The position numbers were made by a program, and so were the translations under genes. This document shows positions 2,577 through 41,401 of a stretch of 43,926 nucleotides of DNA, in pieces. Position 1 is the stretch's first letter, and every line of letters begins with the position of its first letter. Source of the stretch: a virus; the IMG/VR virus record IMGVR_UViG_3300036780_000411, positions 1 to 43,926 of that record. One strand, written 5' to 3'. Below the pieces are notes generated by a model. That model searched no databases. It was not told the origin of the DNA and worked only from the letters and a program-made list of their open reading frames with translations.

Positions 2577-2652
2577 GCCGGTGTAGCTCAGACGGCAGAG
2601 CAACGGTCTTGTAAACCGTAGGTCAGGGGTTCGACTCCCCTCGCCGGCTCCA
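2577..2652 (+). tRNA. tRNA-Thr (anticodon TGT)
   Basis: A full cloverleaf can be drawn. The acceptor GCCGGTG (2577-2583) pairs with CGCCGGC (2642-2648) with one G-U pair. The anticodon stem ACGGT/ACCGT encloses the loop CTTGTAA, giving anticodon TGT for threonine. The T arm is GGGGTTCGACTCCCC. CCA is encoded at 2650-2652. It is a host tRNA and the apparent integration target of the adjacent prophage, whose integrase gene ends 24 bases downstream in convergent orientation. The tRNA 3' half looks intact, as expected when the phage attP supplies an identical sequence. Confidence 0.95.
2621..2652. other. Inferred attL core (3' end of tRNA-Thr)
   Basis: Tyrosine integrases of actinophages commonly use the T arm and acceptor end of a tRNA as attB, with int adjacent. 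The tRNA-Thr 3' end followed immediately by an integrase gene fits this. The core limits shown are a guess: the matching attR copy is not in the window, so the right boundary lies beyond base 43926. Confidence 0.5.
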
Positions 2653-2675
2653 AGACGTAGCGCCTTGACCAGGTG

Positions 2676-4127
2676 TTACGCGTTTCCGGCAGCCTTTCGG
2701 GGCGGCCGGGATGATCTTTGGGTGGCCGTAGGGTGTCCATCCGGACGCGACCCGTGCCGTGGGATCGTCGCCACGATCGCCGCGGCCGCGGCCTCGTCCA
2801 GCTCGGTCAGCACCGACGTATACGTATCATCGGTGATCGCCTGATTCGTGTGCCCCATCCGCTCCTGGACCACCTTGGGCTTGACCCCGGCCAGCAGGGC
2901 GTAGGTGGCCATGGCGTGCCGGAGCCCGTGCAGTGTGATCGGCGGCAGCCCGGCCGCGTGGGCCAGCCTGGCGAATTCCATCGTGACGTGGTTGGGGTGC
3001 CACCCGGACCCGTCGGCCTGGATGAACACGAGTCCCGATTCCGCCCAGGCGCTGCCCGCTGCCAGGCGCATCTCTGGCAGCCGTTTGCGGAGCGCCCGGA
3101 ACTTCGCCCCGAGGCCTGGGTCCATCGCGATGGTCCGGTTGCTGGCGTCGGACTTCACCGAGTCGGGGACGACCTTGTTCCCGATGGTCACCCTGGTGGA
3201 CACCACATCGAAGGACGCCTTGTCGCCTAGAACGACTTCGGTCCACGGCAGCCCGCACGCCTCGGCGCGGCGGATGCCGGTCACGAGGATGGTCTCGAAC
3301 ATGTCGGCCAGCGGGTGCCGTTGCTCGTAGGTGTAGTCCAGGAACCAGCCGGCTTGCTCGGGTGTCCACACCATCACCCGGTACGGGCGGCGCCACGCTG
3401 CCCGCCACGCTTTCAACCCGTCAGTTTTCGGGTGCTCGGCCAGGTGGTCCTGGAGCTTGGCCCAGAACGCTTCTGTGCGTTCGGGAGTCCAGACCCGGGG
3501 GCGCTGCTTCGGCTCGGGGTCCATCTCCAGGCCGCGGGCCGGGTTGTTGGGCACCCGGGCCGGGCCGGCCGCGTTGAGAGCCGCGCGGAGCACAGCCCGG
3601 ATGCGTTGCATGGTCGCGGGCCCGACGTAGTGCTGATGTTTCCGCACCGGTTCGCCGCGGGCGAACGCCTCGTTCCATTCGCGGATGGTGTTGAACATGC
3701 CGGCCACGTCTTCGGGCCGGAGTTTGTCGAGGGGGATGTGGCCGAGCAGCGGGTCGAGGTACAGCCGGGTCACGGTCTCGTACCGGGCCCGGGTGGTTTG
3801 CTTGATCTTCCGCCGGCCTGCCAGCCACGCCTGCAGGTACGGGCCGGTCTTGTCCTTGTTGGCCGGGTCTCCCCCGGCGCCCAGCTTCGCTTTGGCTTCG
3901 TCCCGGGCGGCCTCGGCGTCGTCGCGGGTCGCGAAGCCGCCCACTCGCAGCGGCGACCGGCGTTTCCCGCCGGGGCCGGGTGGCAGTTCCAGCCGGTAGT
4001 ACCAGGTTCCGTGCCGCGGGTTGTAAGAGCCGTCGGACCGGTGCAGCTTCGGGCACATCGCCCCGAGTTCCCGGCCATCCTCGCCGCGGCACCTGCAGCG
4101 TTTCGAGTAGGAGTCTTTCGCTGGCAT
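2676..4127 (-). CDS. int: Tyrosine recombinase (phage integrase)
   Basis: Site-specific recombinase that integrates the prophage at tRNA-Thr. The start chosen is ATG at 4127, because GGAGG (4135-4139) lies 7 bases upstream; this gives 483 residues. The N terminus has a Cys-containing, arm-binding-type region (KRCRCRGEDG, then an AP2-like strand region). A SAM-like core-binding domain spans about residues 115-180 and the catalytic domain about 240-450. Visible active-site residues are Arg286 (TGIRRAEACGLPW), His400 and Arg403 (HGLRHAM) and Tyr436 (DDTYTSV). The gene converges on the tRNA and is divergent from the excisionase gene, the usual integration-module layout. Confidence 0.95.
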   Translation of the reverse strand: MPAKDSYSKRCRCRGEDGRELGAMCPKLHRSDGSYNPRHGTWYYRLELPPGPGGKRRSPLRVGGFATRDDAEAARDEAKAKLGAGGDPANKDKTGPYLQAWLAGRRKIKQTTRARYETVTRLYLDPLLGHIPLDKLRPEDVAGMFNTIREWNEAFARGEPVRKHQHYVGPATMQRIRAVLRAALNAAGPARVPNNPARGLEMDPEPKQRPRVWTPERTEAFWAKLQDHLAEHPKTDGLKAWRAAWRRPYRVMVWTPEQAGWFLDYTYEQRHPLADMFETILVTGIRRAEACGLPWTEVVLGDKASFDVVSTRVTIGNKVVPDSVKSDASNRTIAMDPGLGAKFRALRKRLPEMRLAAGSAWAESGLVFIQADGSGWHPNHVTMEFARLAHAAGLPPITLHGLRHAMATYALLAGVKPKVVQERMGHTNQAITDDTYTSVLTELDEAAAAAIVATIPRHGSRPDGHPTATQRSSRPPRKAAGNA

Positions 4128-4222
4128 CGGGTCGCCTCCGTGGTCGGCCAGCGCTGCCGCCCAGCGCAGCCAACGAAACCGTAGCGCACGATTCCAAACA
4201 GATCCACACTCGATCTTAAAAA

Positions 4223-4257
4223 TTAGACTCATGTGAACAGGCTGATACGATTTCACA
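4223..4257 (+). promoter_or_regulatory. Candidate promoter and operator-like inverted repeat between int and xis
   Basis: The 199-bp gap between int and xis is clearly AT-richer than its surroundings. A possible plus-strand promoter is TTAGAC (4223-4228), a 17-base spacer and TACGAT (4246-4251). A perfect inverted repeat TGTGAA-N14-TTCACA (4232-4237 and 4252-4257) brackets the -10, as an operator would. A second short palindrome, TGTTG-AA-CAACA, lies at 4274-4285, with another TGTTG at 4264-4268. The binding protein is unknown: a phage repressor, Xis, or the integrase arm domain are candidates. Confidence 0.4.
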
Positions 4258-4326
4258 CGAATATGTTGTACGGTGTTGAACAACAGCGTGTACTCACCGC
4301 GCTCACAGCAACAGAGGAGGCCCGGC

Positions 4327-34200: not shown

Positions 34201-35589
34201 TCAGACGTTGACCCCGAGGCGGTACGCCCGGCCTACGAACTTCGGCGTGCGGACGGCCAGGCAGCAGTCGCCCATGATCGCGAACGGCAGGCTGTCGGGG
34301 CTGGATGACGTCGGGTAGACATCCAGTGGCCTCGCCTCACGCACGAACGGGCGCACGATGTTGCCCGGGTCGCGAGACATCAGGTAGATGTTCTCCTGGC
34401 CCGCGCCGGGCGGCTGCATGGCCGTGTTGCCGCCGATGTAGGCGGTCGGCAGCACGTTCGGGACGACGCTGCCCGAGGACTGCTGCGGCACCAGCGCCGC
34501 CCCCGTGTCCACGATCTGGTTGGTGACGATCTGGGTCACGCCGTCAGCGGCGGTGCCGACGGTGGAGTCCACGTAGCCGAGCAGCGTCTCCGTGCCGGCC
34601 GCGCCACCCGCGGCGGTGCGCCACACCTTGTACAGCTGCGCGGCACCGGTGTCCTGCCCCGTCGGCGGGGTGAACGACAGAGTGATGGTGTTCAAGTTCC
34701 CACCGGAACCGGTGGTCTGCGACACCTCCTGCGACGGCAGGATTTCACCCTGGCGGGCGATGATCGGGGAGATCATGTACTTGTAGGTGCTGGAGGCCGG
34801 CAGTTGACCGTTGGACCCGGAGGTGGCGGCGGTGACCGCCCCCATCGAGTAGCCGCGGGTGGACAGGAACGAGGACGGGACGAGCGGCACCTTCTTGTAG
34901 GTGGAGACGATCAGGCCGGCTTCGACCTCCACCTCGTTGAACCGCTGCTGGTTGACCAGCAACTGGCCGATCTTCGCCTCGGCCGTGGTGGACATGACGA
35001 ACATCCACGAGGAGTCGGCGACGGGCTCGGCGGCGTTGCCGGACACCATGTCGATCAGCTCGTCCAGAGTCGCCAGAGACAGCGACCGGCCGGCGTAGTC
35101 GATGACGTTCTGGCTGCCGCCCTGCGAGAACTGCTGGATCTGGGTGTCGAGACCGTCGAACTGGGGCTGCGCGCCGTTCGCCGTGCTGGCGGCGTTGCCC
35201 CAGCCGCAGAACGTCTCGACGTCCCAGTAGTAGCCCTTGATCGCGCCATTGATTTCAGTTGCCCTCAGGTCGTCGATGACGTCCTGCGTGACTTCCTGCG
35301 CGTAGCCGGTGACCGAGCCGACAGCCTGGATGTGGGCCATCTGGAACTCGTTCTGCGCGTACACGGAGGTGGAGACCGGCCGGGCGCCGCCGTCGGGCAC
35401 AGCACCGCCCTGCACGACGACCTGCCTGGTGTTCCAGTAGTAGGTCGTCGAGTTCCACTTTCGGGTACTGATCGACCGGCACCAGGGGGCGAACCGGCGC
35501 TGGTATTCGACCAGCACAGAGTCGATGATCTTGGGTACGAACGGGGCTGCGCCAGCGGCGGTCAGCGCCTCGCGAAGCTCACTGGACAT
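34201..35589 (-). CDS. Major capsid protein with Ig/FN3-like insert
   Basis: A 462-residue virion protein with HK97-type features: EYQRRFAPWCRSIS, an E-loop/long-helix region, EINGAIKGYYWDVE, SLATLDELIDMV, SSWMFVMSTTAEAKIG and a C-terminal A-domain strand set (DPGNIVRPFVREARPLDV, MGDCCLAVRTPKFVGRAYRL). A segment at about 255-375 looks inserted: TITLSFTPPTG, AAQLYKVWRTAAGG and ETLLGYVDS follow the fibronectin-III/Ig strand pattern and would project from the capsid surface. ATG 35589 follows AAAGGGA. It is flanked by hairpins on both sides. Confidence 0.85.
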   Translation of the reverse strand: MSSELREALTAAGAAPFVPKIIDSVLVEYQRRFAPWCRSISTRKWNSTTYYWNTRQVVVQGGAVPDGGARPVSTSVYAQNEFQMAHIQAVGSVTGYAQEVTQDVIDDLRATEINGAIKGYYWDVETFCGWGNAASTANGAQPQFDGLDTQIQQFSQGGSQNVIDYAGRSLSLATLDELIDMVSGNAAEPVADSSWMFVMSTTAEAKIGQLLVNQQRFNEVEVEAGLIVSTYKKVPLVPSSFLSTRGYSMGAVTAATSGSNGQLPASSTYKYMISPIIARQGEILPSQEVSQTTGSGGNLNTITLSFTPPTGQDTGAAQLYKVWRTAAGGAAGTETLLGYVDSTVGTAADGVTQIVTNQIVDTGAALVPQQSSGSVVPNVLPTAYIGGNTAMQPPGAGQENIYLMSRDPGNIVRPFVREARPLDVYPTSSSPDSLPFAIMGDCCLAVRTPKFVGRAYRLGVNV

Positions 35590-35628
35590 GCGGGTGTCCC
35601 TTTCAGGTGGGAGAGGTGGGGGAATGCG

Positions 35629-35654
35629 AAAGCCCCAGCCGTGGCCGGGGCTTT
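35629..35654 (-). terminator. Compact hairpin between protease and capsid genes
   Basis: AAAGCCCC (35629-35636) pairs with GGGGCTTT (35647-35654), extended by an inner GCC/GGC around a two-base loop with one mismatch. It lies 39 bases before the capsid ATG in the 151-bp gap after the protease gene. This may be an mRNA processing or attenuation element that sets capsid levels. The remaining gap, 35655-35740, shows nothing recognisable. Confidence 0.5.
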
Positions 35655-35740
35655 GTGACCGTCTCCGCCGAGAAAGGGGCACCCGCGGGCTAGCCGCTGG
35701 CGGTCAAAGGGCGTGCTGGTTAAACGGGTAGTACGGGGGT

Positions 35741-37672
35741 TCAGGCGCGACGCGCGCCGGGGCCGAACGCCGCTGCCGCGGTCTTGGCCAGGTCCACGTT
35801 CGTGGCTTCCTGGAGGTTCTTCCCGGTCGCTGCGGCCTCCAGCGCCGACGGGTCAGGCCCGGCGGCCAGGCCCCTGCGGGTGACACCGCCGTTCTCGGCC
35901 TGGGCCTGCCGCAGCGGCACGAGCCGCTCCTCCAGCAGACGTGCCATGACCTGCTCGTCGGTCTCCGCAGCGGTCAGGCCCTCCCGGGCGGCAGCCTCGG
36001 CGATCTTGGCGTCGGCCAGCGCGGACAGGCGGGCCATCCGCTGCTCCTGGGTTTCCTGCGCCGGGGTGCCAGCGGCCGGCTGAGCAGCTGGGGCCGCGGC
36101 GGCCGGGGCCGGGGTTCCCGCGGGCGCGGTCTCCGCCGCCGGAACTGCGGCGGGGGCACCGGCAGTGGCGGCTTCACGGGCTGCCTTCTTGGCCAGCCGC
36201 TTCGTCTCCTTGGCCAGGAGCCTCTGGTACAGGTCCGGGTCAACACCGGCGGCCACATTGCTGTTCTCGGCTGCCGGGGTCGTCCCGGCCGCCGGTGGGG
36301 TGGTTCCGCCCATGGCGGGGTCCTCCTGTTCGGTCGCGGCAGCCGGGGTGGATGCCGGGTCTGTGCCCCCCTCTGGGGGGGCGGTCTCGTCGGGGTCGTC
36401 GCCGTGGGCTGTTTCGTGGGCGTCATCGTCCGGATCGCTGTTGTTACCGACACCGGGGACGTCTACGTCGCCGTCCATGTCCGGGTCGAGCGATGCCAGC
36501 GCGTCACCTGCTGCGACCGCAGCGGCGGCGAGGATCGCTTTCAGGTCGGCCGGGTCCATGCAGTACGACGACATGTAGAGGTTGACCGGGCCGTTGCTGG
36601 CGCTGACGCTCCACGACCCGGACCGTGCCGCGTCCTGCTCCGGGCTCATCCACTCCTGGACGCTCTCGGAAAGCTGCACCGGGGCGGTGACCGTCCAGCC
36701 GCGGGTTTCGCTGGCCGACGGGGTGACGCCGAACTTCTTCAGCGCCTTGACGATCCGGCCCTTGATCCGCTTGAGCCGGATCGACGAGTACGCCTTAGCG
36801 TTCTTGGCCCGGTTGATGAACCGCCAGGCTGCGACGGCGTGCGCCTTCGTGTCGAGCTGGTAACGCTGCTTCCCGTCCGTCTGGTAACCGGGGTCGGCGT
36901 ACGGGCCGCCGGGGCCGCTGATGCCCGCCTTCCGCTTCGACATCGGCTGTCCGGCTTCGGCCACAGTCTCGGCCGGGCAGGTGACGCAGATGCCGTCCTC
37001 AAGGACGTGCCCCGGGACCGGGTACAGCGCCTCCAGCATCGCCCGAACTTCAGCCGGTGCCGGTGCCGTGGTTTCTGGGGTGGCTCCCTCGGTGATGGTC
37101 ACCCGTGCCTCCTGAACGCTCTCTGTGATGGCGACCCGCTCGGTCGTTTCGGTCCGGCCGGCACGGTCCACCCACGCGAACGTGTCCACCCCGGCGCCAG
37201 TGACGCCAGGTGACTTGGTGTAGTCCAGGCCGTCCAGCTCGATGCCGTCGGCGGTCTCGACCTGGGCGCCTTCGGGGCCTTTGACCTTGCGGACGGTGCC
37301 CTTCCAGTACCCGCGGATCGACACGCCGTCCAGGAACGCGGGCTGCCCGTCGCTGGTGTCGAGCAGCTTGGCGATGGTCTGGCCGGCTTCGGTGTCGGCG
37401 ATGTCGGCGGTGAACCTGGCCGCGCCGGTCTCGTCGAGCGACATGGAGGTGAGCCGGCCGACGATCTGGACCGAGTCGTCTCCGGCGCCGTGGTGGGTGA
37501 GCTGGGCCAGCGGATACTGCCGGTCGGTGAGCGCGATTCCCTGGCCGGAGCCGATCCGCGTCTGCGCTTCCTTGACTGACGCGGCGATCATGTCGGCGGT
37601 GTACCAGCGCTGATTCAGGCTGACGCCTGGTTTCAGCGCAACCCCGCCGACTGTGGCGATGACTCCGGCCAT
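35741..37672 (-). CDS. Capsid maturation protease fused to scaffold
   Basis: A 643-residue protein. Residues 1-170 resemble prohead proteases of the actinophage type (PLAQLTHHGAGDDSVQIVGRL, LDGVSIRGYWKG). A DUF6582-like segment lies at about 255-330 (YADPGYQTDGKQRYQLDTK, RLKRIKGRIVKALKKFG). An acidic linker follows, then a Pro/Ala-rich and coiled-coil scaffold region (EQRMARLSALADAKIAEAA, ETDEQVMARLLEERLV). Scaffold and protease in one ORF allow self-removal during maturation. The gene precedes the major capsid, as expected. GAGGGAG lies upstream of ATG 37672. Confidence 0.75.
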   Translation of the reverse strand: MAGVIATVGGVALKPGVSLNQRWYTADMIAASVKEAQTRIGSGQGIALTDRQYPLAQLTHHGAGDDSVQIVGRLTSMSLDETGAARFTADIADTEAGQTIAKLLDTSDGQPAFLDGVSIRGYWKGTVRKVKGPEGAQVETADGIELDGLDYTKSPGVTGAGVDTFAWVDRAGRTETTERVAITESVQEARVTITEGATPETTAPAPAEVRAMLEALYPVPGHVLEDGICVTCPAETVAEAGQPMSKRKAGISGPGGPYADPGYQTDGKQRYQLDTKAHAVAAWRFINRAKNAKAYSSIRLKRIKGRIVKALKKFGVTPSASETRGWTVTAPVQLSESVQEWMSPEQDAARSGSWSVSASNGPVNLYMSSYCMDPADLKAILAAAAVAAGDALASLDPDMDGDVDVPGVGNNSDPDDDAHETAHGDDPDETAPPEGGTDPASTPAAATEQEDPAMGGTTPPAAGTTPAAENSNVAAGVDPDLYQRLLAKETKRLAKKAAREAATAGAPAAVPAAETAPAGTPAPAAAAPAAQPAAGTPAQETQEQRMARLSALADAKIAEAAAREGLTAAETDEQVMARLLEERLVPLRQAQAENGGVTRRGLAAGPDPSALEAAATGKNLQEATNVDLAKTAAAAFGPGARRA

Positions 37673-38097: not shown

Positions 38098-38532
38098 TCA
38101 GCGGCCGTACAGGGCGATCTGAGCGCCCGACACCGACGTGCTGTTCGTGATCGACCAGGACACCCGCCCCCAGTCGGGAAGCACGAGGTACGTGCTCGCG
38201 GAGCCGCCGTGCAGGCCGCCGGTGACCGTCTTCGACCCGGCCGCCGACAGGGCTGCGGTCGACAGGACCGCGGGGAACAGGTTGCCCAGGTTGTCGTACA
38301 GGTCGAGGTTGACCGTGAACGCCGGGGAGCCGGTAACCCCGGCGACGGTGACCATGAGTACGACGTCTGTGATCTCCCGCAAGTCCACCGGGGTTTCAGC
38401 GTCGGCAGACGGCGGCCAGCCAGGCAGCGTGCCGTCCCAACTGCCAGAGTTCCCGGCCGCGCTGAGAGTCGTACCGAGGCCGGAGGCGGCGAGGGACCAG
38501 AGGAGCTTGGAGCGTGGCTGCAGGTTGCCCAC
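38098..38532 (-). CDS. Beta-rich head-module protein
   Basis: A 144-residue protein from GTG 38532, with AGGAGG five bases upstream; an upstream in-frame start has no such site. It has a jelly-roll-like alternation (ITDVVLMVTVAGVTG, PAFTVNLDLYDNLGN, TYLVLPDWGRVSWSI, SGAQIALYGR). It precedes the decoration-like gene. It might be a second decoration or head-fibre protein. No enzymatic motif. Confidence 0.6.
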   Translation of the reverse strand: MGNLQPRSKLLWSLAASGLGTTLSAAGNSGSWDGTLPGWPPSADAETPVDLREITDVVLMVTVAGVTGSPAFTVNLDLYDNLGNLFPAVLSTAALSAAGSKTVTGGLHGGSASTYLVLPDWGRVSWSITNSTSVSGAQIALYGR

Positions 38533-38557
38533 GGTGACCTCCTGGCAGACTGGGGGG

Positions 38558-38977
38558 ATGGACGAACCGTCGGCATGTGGCTGCATTCAGGTCGGCGGCC
38601 ACAGCAACCCGGCCTTCTGCCTGATCCATGGGTTTACTAGGCCGGAGCAACCGACCGAGTTCGTCGGCTTGGATGACCTCATCGAGGAGCCGTTGGTGAG
38701 CGACGGCAGCTACCGGCTGAGCAGCGACGAGCGGCTGGAATGGGACGGCGTCGAGATTCTGGTGGTCAGCGACTCACGGTTGGTCGAGATGAGCGAGGCC
38801 ATGATGATCGGCGGCAGGCGCGGGGGCCGCTCGACGACGCACCGCCGACAGACCGAATGGCGCGCCGATCACGGCTGGCACACGCACGCCATCGGTCACG
38901 CCGGTCAGTGGTGCGTGACCCGCCAGCCGATCGGCTACCTCTACGAGCGCATCCCGCGCGAGAGGGTTTGCGGCTAG
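38558..38977 (+). CDS. Plus-strand moron-like gene 2
   Basis: A 139-residue protein running against the late operon, starting 25 bases from the divergent start at 38532. Its TAG (38975-38977) shares CTAG with the stop of the MuF-type gene (38974). The start ATG 38558 directly follows a GGGGGG run. The product has an N-terminal Cys/His group (CGCIQVGG, CLIHG), an acidic middle and a C-terminal region with HGWHTHAIGHAGQWCV. No family is recognised. An independent, lysogen-phase promoter is likely, but none is evident in the short gap. Confidence 0.6.
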   Translation: MDEPSACGCIQVGGHSNPAFCLIHGFTRPEQPTEFVGLDDLIEEPLVSDGSYRLSSDERLEWDGVEILVVSDSRLVEMSEAMMIGGRRGGRSTTHRRQTEWRADHGWHTHAIGHAGQWCVTRQPIGYLYERIPRERVCG

Positions 38978-40479
38978 GCAGCGGCCTTCAGGAATTGGCT
39001 GAACGCGGAGAACGGCAACGCCCGCTGCGACGCAGCCACACAACACCGGCACAGCGGATGCGCGGGCACGATCGGTATCTGGCCGGGCAGCAGGGTGTGC
39101 GGGTTGTCGTCCTGCGCTTGATCGCAGGCCGGGCAGACGCGGGCGTCGCCGGCGGTCATCACGTCGTACGCCTCGATGCCTTCGGCGGCGTACAGGTTCA
39201 GCGCGCCCTGGTTCGCCGACCCGGACATGGCGTAGTCGATCAGGGTGATGACGGCGCGGATACTGTCGCCGGTGGTCAGCTCTTCGACGGCATCGACCAT
39301 CTCCTGGTACGTGCCGCCGTTCGCTGCGAGCGACGCGAGACGCTGCCCGATGTCGGCTGCGTTACCGCTGATCAGCGCTTCGACCCACGGGTCGGCCATG
39401 CCGGGCAGGTTTTCCAGGTGGGTCAGCGGCTCGTACATGTGCTCGAACGCGGCCGCCCAGATGAACCCGTCGTGGGCGCCTTCGGCCGCCGCGGCCGCGA
39501 GCACACCGGTTTTACCTTCGGCGATGGCGGCCGCGAGTGCTTCCTCGATCGCCGTGATCAGGGCCTCGTGGTCGTCGCCGTAGCGGATGCCGCCGAGCAT
39601 CCCGGCCGCGAGCATCTTGGCCTGGGCGCGGGCCTCGTCGGACTGTGCGGATTCGCGGGTCATCCCGGTCAGGCCACGGAACGACCGGACCAGCCGCCCG
39701 CGATCCAGGTTCTTGCACGCCCGCCGCCAGACGGCTTCGACCTCGGCGACGTGGTGCCGGATGAGGTCGTCGCGGCGTTGGAGTACTCGCGCCCAGGTGC
39801 CGTCCGTCTTCCCGACCTCGAGCACGACCTCGAGCAGCCGCGGGTTGGCCGCCTGCTCCAGTGCGGCCGTGACGGCGGTGTGGCAGCCGTGGCTGAGGGT
39901 TTCGCTGGCCGGGCCGCCAGATAGGGCCCAGCCGGTCATGTACGCCTCGGCGGCGGCGTCGGCCAGCGTCGGGGTGAACGCGTAGTCGGTACGGTCCTGC
40001 CCGTGCACGGCCGATACGGCGCCGAATTCGACCGGGAGGGCGGCGATCCGCTGCACTGGACTCGGCGCCCAGGTGGAGACGTATTCGATGGCGATGTGGG
40101 GGCAGAACCCGTACGCCGACCGGATCGACAGCCTCTCAGCCGCGAGCAGATCCTCGGTGTCACGGCGCAGGTCGTCAAGCCGCGGGGAGGACAGGAGCGC
40201 GACGACACAGTCGAGGTCTTCGGCGCCGGTGAACCGGCCGTGGCCGGACAGCAGCGCGGTGATGGGGCTGCGGGCGGCGAGGGCAGCGGCGACCCGGTTG
40301 AGTGCAGCCTTGTCCACTTCGCCGGATGGGCCGACGTAAGCGATGGTGAGGTGGAGGGAGCCCGGGTCGGGTCCGTCGTCGGTGGCCAGCGTGTCCGCCA
40401 GCGTGGATGGCGGGTAGAGGGCGATCATGCACGAGCCGGTGTAGTCCGGCTGCTGGGTCGCCTCATGCACGTTGGTCAC
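38974..40479 (-). CDS. 2H-phosphoesterase-like domain fused to MuF/SPP1 gp7-type head protein
   Basis: A 501-residue protein. Residues 10-165 follow the 2H (LigT/2'-5' RNA ligase) fold, with motifs HLTIAYVG (His43, Thr45) and HIAIEY (His128). The second motif has Ala130 where Thr or Ser is usual. Residues 180-500 are a helical minor-head protein ending in the MuF-type motif: YDVMTAGDARVCPACDQ, then PAHPLCRCC. MuF proteins bind the portal region and some are injected with DNA. GTG 40479 has AGGAG five to six bases upstream. It precedes the decoration, protease and capsid genes. Confidence 0.8.
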   Translation of the reverse strand: MTNVHEATQQPDYTGSCMIALYPPSTLADTLATDDGPDPGSLHLTIAYVGPSGEVDKAALNRVAAALAARSPITALLSGHGRFTGAEDLDCVVALLSSPRLDDLRRDTEDLLAAERLSIRSAYGFCPHIAIEYVSTWAPSPVQRIAALPVEFGAVSAVHGQDRTDYAFTPTLADAAAEAYMTGWALSGGPASETLSHGCHTAVTAALEQAANPRLLEVVLEVGKTDGTWARVLQRRDDLIRHHVAEVEAVWRRACKNLDRGRLVRSFRGLTGMTRESAQSDEARAQAKMLAAGMLGGIRYGDDHEALITAIEEALAAAIAEGKTGVLAAAAAEGAHDGFIWAAAFEHMYEPLTHLENLPGMADPWVEALISGNAADIGQRLASLAANGGTYQEMVDAVEELTTGDSIRAVITLIDYAMSGSANQGALNLYAAEGIEAYDVMTAGDARVCPACDQAQDDNPHTLLPGQIPIVPAHPLCRCCVAASQRALPFSAFSQFLKAAA

Positions 40480-40736: not shown

Positions 40737-40782
40737 GGCCCCCTCGGCATCGGGTGCCCGGTCAACCAGGAAGGCCGTCCGC

Positions 40783-40795
40783 GCGTCTTAGACGC
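40783..40795. promoter_or_regulatory. 13-bp palindrome abutting the lipoprotein start
   Basis: GCGTCT-T-AGACGC ends one base before the ATG at 40797. No ribosome site lies at usual spacing before that ATG, so the palindrome may be an operator or hairpin on a short or leaderless mRNA. It is short enough to be fortuitous. Confidence 0.3.
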
Positions 40796-40796
40796 C

Positions 40797-41324
40797 ATGA
40801 GGAAGATCCCTATCGCGGCCGTAGCCGCAGCAGCCTTACTGACCGTCGCCGCGTGCAGCCATCCCGCCGCAGCGCCCGCCGATCCTGCCGCAGCAACCAG
40901 CGCGGCCAGCCCGTCCACGCCGACGGTGAGCGTGAGCCCGCAGACACCGGCCGGTGCCAAAGCTGCCGCGGTGACCTACTTCAGCTTTTACGGGGCTAGC
41001 CAGTACGCGGCCACTTACCCGCTGCTGGCCCGGGCCAGCCACGCCATCGTCAGCGAGCGGACATGGGTCGCAGTGCACGAGGGGTGTAAGCGGGAGAGCG
41101 CGGGCCTGTCCTACAAGGTCACCCACCCACTCGTGTCTGGCACGACCGCGGTAGTGACTGTTTCGCTGGCCGGTGCCGCGGCGTCGATCAGCAGTGAGCA
41201 GGCGAGCTTCACCTATGCGGGCGGCCGGTGGGGGTACGACATTCCGGACCCGTCCGTCTACCGGCATCACACCGCACGCCAGGCCTTGGCGGCCCTGAAC
41301 GCTGAGGGAGAATGCGGGGGGTGA
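40797..41324 (+). CDS. Lipoprotein, probable lysogenic-conversion gene
   Basis: A 175-residue protein with a lipoprotein signal peptide: MRKIP, an Ala/Val core, then LTVAAC with the lipidated Cys at residue 20. An Ala/Pro/Thr linker to about residue 55 leads to a globular domain (VTYFSFYGASQYAATYPLL, VTVSLAGAAASISSEQASFTYAGGRW is beta-rich). It has a single Cys in the domain (EGCKRE). It is transcribed opposite to the late genes and ends six bases before the 3' end of tRNA-Gln. A surface protein that alters the lysogen, for example by blocking superinfection, is the common role for such genes; this is inference. Confidence 0.75.
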   Translation: MRKIPIAAVAAAALLTVAACSHPAAAPADPAAATSAASPSTPTVSVSPQTPAGAKAAAVTYFSFYGASQYAATYPLLARASHAIVSERTWVAVHEGCKRESAGLSYKVTHPLVSGTTAVVTVSLAGAAASISSEQASFTYAGGRWGYDIPDPSVYRHHTARQALAALNAEGECGG

Positions 41325-41329
41325 GCGTG

Positions 41330-41401
41330 CTCCCCCCCGTGGATTCGAACCACGATCGTCGGGTCCAGAACCCGGTGTCCTGCCTGTTAGACGAAGGGGG
41401 A
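41330..41401 (-). tRNA. Phage-borne tRNA-Gln (anticodon CTG)
   Basis: On the minus strand TCCCCCT (5' end at 41401) pairs with GGGGGGA (41331-41337) as acceptor stem with a terminal U-G. The D stem is GTC/GAC, the anticodon loop TTCTGGA gives CTG, and the T arm is CGTGG-TTCGAAT-CCACG. The discriminator is G73, typical of tRNA-Gln. The anticodon stem has one C-A mismatch at 27-43. CCA is not encoded (GCAC follows). It lies in the late operon, 24 bases after the 41426 gene. Confidence 0.88.

Follow-up and report, generated by a model that had tools for sequence, protein, structure and literature searches.

A degenerate 2H phosphoesterase-like domain fused to a MuF-type minor head protein in a putative prophage

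The window, by which we mean the whole stretch of DNA that was analysed, comprises the 43,926 bases of an IMG/VR virus record. It opens with two host-type genes, coding for a cysteinyl-tRNA synthetase (cysS, 1-1431) and a SpoU rRNA methylase (1428-2504), and as these are followed by a tRNA-Thr (2577-2652) and an integrase (2676-4283), the window is most likely an integrated prophage, the far end of which is probably cut off. The tRNA-Thr and integrase adjoining the cysS and SpoU methylase genes (2577-4283) are likely to mark the site of integration; the end of the tRNA-Thr is not repeated elsewhere in the window. Genes for a tape measure protein, an endolysin, a major capsid protein and a protease-like protein indicate a tailed phage. 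The minus strand encodes the major capsid protein, which is of the SU10 type (34201..35682; PF17236, E 1.6e-9; PHROG 752, E 2.3e-31), a head-maturation-protease-like protein with a DUF6582 region (35741..37672; PHROG 207, E 0.0086; PF20223, E 3.1e-8), a small protein of no assigned family (38098..38586) and, with this small gene on its 3' side, the fusion protein that is the subject of this report. The fusion ORF spans positions 38974-40479 and codes for 501 residues, with a GTG start at 40479, an AGGAG directly 5' of it, and a stop at 38974. A first-pass annotation of this DNA, made from the sequence alone, had joined a 2H-fold domain to a MuF-type head protein at these coordinates; the ORF is confirmed there, and we add its strand (minus), which that annotation did not give. 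Just past the fusion gene (40754-41401), the series of head genes on the minus strand is interrupted by a lipoprotein-like ORF on the plus strand and by a tRNA-Gln, itself on the minus strand (41329-41401).

The N-terminal part of the protein, residues 1-175 (39955..40479, minus strand; fold core approximately residues 14-170), is a 2H phosphoesterase domain as delimited by Pfam, AlphaFold2 and PDB matches. PF13563 matches residues 42-140 of the fusion above its cut-off (E 5.5e-8; 33.4 versus 27 bits), and the protein also matches a PHROG family described as 'RNA ligase' (E 5e-10). An AlphaFold2 model of the domain, built from an alignment of 81 related domains, has a mean pLDDT of 92.8, and on the strength of this model the 2H fold can be predicted with confidence. 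Its best match among solved structures is the Deinococcus CPDase 5h7e (Z 17.4, rmsd 3.0, 159 residues), followed by the Thermus protein 1iuh (Z 16.4), E. coli LigT (Z ~14.6), Usb1 (Z 13.7), AKAP18 (Z 13.3), the rotavirus VP3 phosphodiesterase (Z 12.8-13.2) and Acb1 (7t26, Z 11.3). The solved CPDases are likewise recovered by a profile built from the sequences of this family (E 4.6e-12), and in the alignment the second motif of the family falls on the HiTL of the CPDases.

These results uphold the 2H fold that the first-pass annotation had read from two short motifs. The comparison it had proposed, with Acb1, LigT and CPDase, matches all three, with CPDase ahead of LigT and LigT ahead of Acb1; its specific link to Acb1, the phage anti-CBASS enzyme, is not sustained. 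The predicted fold points to the bacterial RNA 2',3'-cyclic phosphodiesterases and LigT as the nearest solved kin, and the Acb1 family model (PF23474) has no match in the window at E<=1; matches to it below its cut-off occur in the relatives L104, L134, L137 and L143. Acb1 shares the 2H fold with the window domain, but its match ranks lower and covers fewer residues (130). The CPDase/LigT structures (5h7e, 1iuh and 5ldi) have the fold in common with the window domain over approximately 150-160 residues (Z 14-17), as well as both histidines and the threonine of the first motif. They differ from it in their second motif, which is HxT rather than HxA, in sequence, with an identity of only 16-18%, and in that, unlike them, the window domain is fused to a head protein.

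The rest of the protein, residues 172-501 (38974..39966 with the stop codon, minus strand), resembles a minor head module of the MuF/SPP1-gp7 type. TIGR01641 matches residues 379-482 with an E-value of 6.2e-6 and a score of 26.5 bits, which lies below the curated cut-off of 39.65, and the fusion also matches PHROG 2841, 'minor head protein' (E 6.5e-8). The MuF half was modelled poorly in a full-length AlphaFold prediction, and a PDB profile search with it returned no meaningful match. Taken singly the TIGR01641 match is weak, but it recurs across the family, at E<=0.01 in 12 of 16 diverse members, and together with PHROG 2841 and the position downstream of the portal in many relatives this supports the MuF-type partner named in the first-pass annotation. 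All 16 members furthermore share three invariant cysteines and one invariant histidine in a C-terminal CxxC...HPxCRC stretch.

In many relatives a portal gene precedes the fusion, and genes for a protease and a capsid protein follow it. The relative L104, for instance, has a Phage_portal gene (PF04860, E 4.4e-30) just upstream of the fusion, which is followed by a gene for 133 residues and a protease-like gene. The fusion or MuF gene lies downstream of the portal also in L115, L122, L124 and L140, and a counterpart of the protease-like DUF6582 gene is kept near the fusion in relatives. No portal was recognised in the window or in the examined flank of its nearest relative, L143; there was neither portal nor terminase among the PHROG matches of the window ORFs scanned, and a comparison of the window with the portal of L104 gave no significant match. 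The capsid and protease-like genes of the window and the portal, protease and capsid neighbours in relatives agree with the head-gene setting that had been supposed for the protein. SPP1 gp7 binds the portal and is located inside the procapsid, and virions without gp7 assemble, with only ~25% of them infectious (PMC6316719; PMC5576092); by analogy, the window protein may dock on a portal in the same manner.

Related 2H domains in general show the same association. Pfam matches in 56 2H-bearing ORFs include Phage_portal (13), Portal_Mu (4), Phage_Mu_F (8), Peptidase_S78_2 (8), Peptidase_S78 (3) and Phage_capsid (2); the fusion partners of related 2H domains are thus mainly head proteins. L009, which is among the closest of the stand-alone 2H relatives (53-55% identical), is encoded between portal-like and ClpP-like protease genes, these names being read from translations. 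On a Deinococcus plasmid a 2H domain forms the end of a DUF935 protein, and on a Streptomyces plasmid one occurs in a protein annotated as 2'-5' RNA ligase, encoded just before a capsid gene. Gordonia phage ChisanaKitsune (L007, 5728-7784) has a stand-alone 2H gene between the portal and a gene annotated as a VIP2-like ADP-ribosyltransferase toxin. In Arthrobacter phage Mufasa8 (L008, 2134-5136) a long frame with a MuF-like end that matches the window is annotated as portal in one record and as NUDIX hydrolase in another.

A scan of viral contigs with the fusion as a single query found nothing, and a mixed alignment gave no usable search pattern. Patterns located outside the second motif retrieved 23 distinct further full-length 2H-MuF fusions of the same type (type A) from viral contigs, one of which (L104) is also present in a bacterial genome, along with four MuF relatives (L148, L150, L151 and L153) that carry a distant second type of 2H domain (type B) in the same place. 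L104 aligns with the window protein across both halves (39% identity over 487 residues, E 6e-104), the 2H half being 48% and the MuF half 35% identical. High-GC DNA contains many spurious ORFs, and the fusion might on that account be suspected to be a product of chance or of a wrong frame; the full-length homologues over both halves, the synteny, the profile match to solved CPDases and the Pfam match above cut-off make the probability of this negligible, and with such homologues at hand we regard the artefact as refuted.

The junction between the two halves is modular, judging by the homologues compared. A homologue on an Amycolatopsis plasmid without the 2H half begins at the junction and aligns with the window protein only from residue 172, and there is no 2H domain detectable in the DNA examined around the MuF relatives L147, L149, L152, L154, L158 and L161. 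The identities of the two halves often disagree: the window protein and L143 are 51% identical in the 2H half and 73% in the MuF half, and L137 and L118 are 92% and 61% identical respectively. Exchange among lineages would explain this, and so would evolution at very uneven rates. A tree of the 2H domains gave no supported placement of the window; in the MuF tree two proteins without a detectable 2H domain, L149 and L158, fall among the fusion-bearing proteins, and therefore the 2H domain was probably lost or gained more than once. Two further frames recall the fusion. In L129 (5501-12985) an open-ended frame of 2495 residues starts with window-like 2H and MuF halves and continues for approximately 2000 more residues, possibly as a polyvalent virion protein. 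A Streptomyces cynarae plasmid (L004, 5965-6522) has a broken 2H-MuF remnant, in which the tail of the 2H domain and the start of the MuF module are still recognisable.

The 2H superfamily is characterized by two H-x-T/S motifs. The first is present in the window protein as HLT (residues 43-45); the second is replaced by His-Ile-Ala (residues 128-130; codons CAC ATC GCC; 40090..40098, minus strand). Both motifs are as the first-pass annotation described them, and its warning over the alanine gains weight from the relatives. The second motif is H-x-T/S in 23 of the 23 other type-A fusions and in all four type-B fusions, and the alanine, with its GCC codon known from one sequenced copy in which an error at a single base is possible, occurs, among the fusions found, in the window only. 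The motif is kept in the nearest relative, L143, and reads H-x-T in 9 of 9 genome matches found without a pattern over this motif, some of which overlap with the earlier sets. In an earlier set of 80 relatives the near-invariance of this motif is partly a matter of selection, as these were picked by the pattern [HY]GF[TCS]PH[IM][TA], and the set does not count as independent evidence; this pattern permitted alanine, though, and the window alone had it. The window protein also departs from the consensus at S97, Y123 and C126. A joint decay of the active site comprising these positions was considered and dropped, as L134 has the same three residues and yet keeps HLT as its second motif; the replacement of Thr-130 by alanine is therefore the sole clean difference of the window protein. 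The reverse condition, a changed first motif with an intact second one, is seen in L126 (1364-2833; HVP) and in L070/L095 (6350-8371; HIA). Across the sequences compared, losses of a single motif thus recur at low frequency.

In mouse CNPase the replacement of the second-motif threonine by alanine (T311A) left no measurable activity (PMC4643303). Because Thr-130 is alanine in the window protein and T311A is inactive, its 2H domain is probably crippled, i.e. weak or inactive, and the suggestion of the first-pass annotation that it might be active is weakened accordingly. By fold and sequence the domain is a 2H homologue, but one that has degenerated and departs from the canonical enzymes. Residual activity is possible by comparison with the T232A mutant of CNPase, which had almost no activity though product was present in its crystals (PMC4643303), as both catalytic histidines and the first-motif threonine remain. 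These intact residues, the confidently predicted fold, the lack of general decay in the 2H half, which is better conserved towards L104 than the MuF half, and the activity already proposed for the 2H-MuF architecture in the literature discussed below would also suit a phosphodiesterase that is delivered by the virion, is still active with its second motif relaxed, and degrades immune nucleotides or heals RNA ends. We consider this doubtful in view of the restriction of Ala-130 to the window and the loss of measurable activity in the corresponding CNPase mutant. The intact ORF and predicted folding of a domain with an altered active site might instead point to a positive non-catalytic role, either as a structural part or as a sponge that binds nucleotides or RNA; phages are known to make sponge proteins that act as inhibitors of immune nucleotide signalling (PMC11722364). 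Such a role is unlikely, as the second motif is kept in all relatives and the function of the family hence looks catalytic. The narrower notion of a virion-borne binder that sequesters rather than cleaves an immune signal is quite improbable; if true, the domain would represent a branch of an injected enzyme family that has turned non-catalytic.

The fusion also resembles the MuF polymorphic toxins, which are widespread in temperate phages (PMC5576092), in that both combine the MuF module of a temperate phage with an extra domain. Usb1 is a good fold match of the 2H domain, and an earlier study proposed that such domains act as RNases in the manner of Usb1 (PMC5512222), so that the domain could be pictured as an RNase directed against the host or competitors. 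This seems very improbable: the cargo of the window protein is N-terminal, whereas toxin domains of MuF proteins are C-terminal (PMC6316719), its active site is altered, and no cognate immunity gene is evident. The downstream gene at 38098-38586 was considered as a candidate for the latter and discarded, as this conserved gene is kept in several relatives even without a 2H domain.

Fusions of 2H to MuF or portal domains were described by Iyer et al. in 2017, who suggested an RNase activity akin to that of Usb1, or the degradation of 2'-5' oligoadenylate or related immune nucleotides (PMC5512222). According to a 2022 survey, such fusions suggest that the proteins are packaged in the head and injected in order to counter signalling by nucleotides (PMC9503650). 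The first-pass hypothesis of a virion-delivered 2H activity is thus in line with these accounts and not new: in both, the same two domain classes occur in one polypeptide with the same proposed role. What sets the window protein apart from those fusions, as far as their text descriptions go, is the alanine in the second motif. It is a further member of a known architecture, with a probably disabled active site as its distinguishing feature.

On balance we somewhat favor the view that the window encodes a late-expressed prophage minor head protein with a crippled 2H cargo. The MuF module would dock on the portal inside the procapsid in a few copies and enter the cell along with the DNA. The N-terminal domain would be a cargo of the LigT/CPDase type. 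Ancestrally this cargo probably acted early in infection, opening or cleaving phosphodiester linkages of the 2',3'-cyclic or 2'-5' kind in damaged RNA or immune nucleotides. With the change of the second-motif threonine to alanine in this phage, the cargo is most likely crippled in its catalysis and retained for now as a folded passenger. The idea of a 2H enzyme in the phage head is years old, and we found no report of a test of it in the literature searched. The family offers a matched comparison, namely L143 with an intact second motif, the window protein with its threonine lost and homologues without the 2H domain, and this set of matched proteins therefore makes the packaged-enzyme idea testable.
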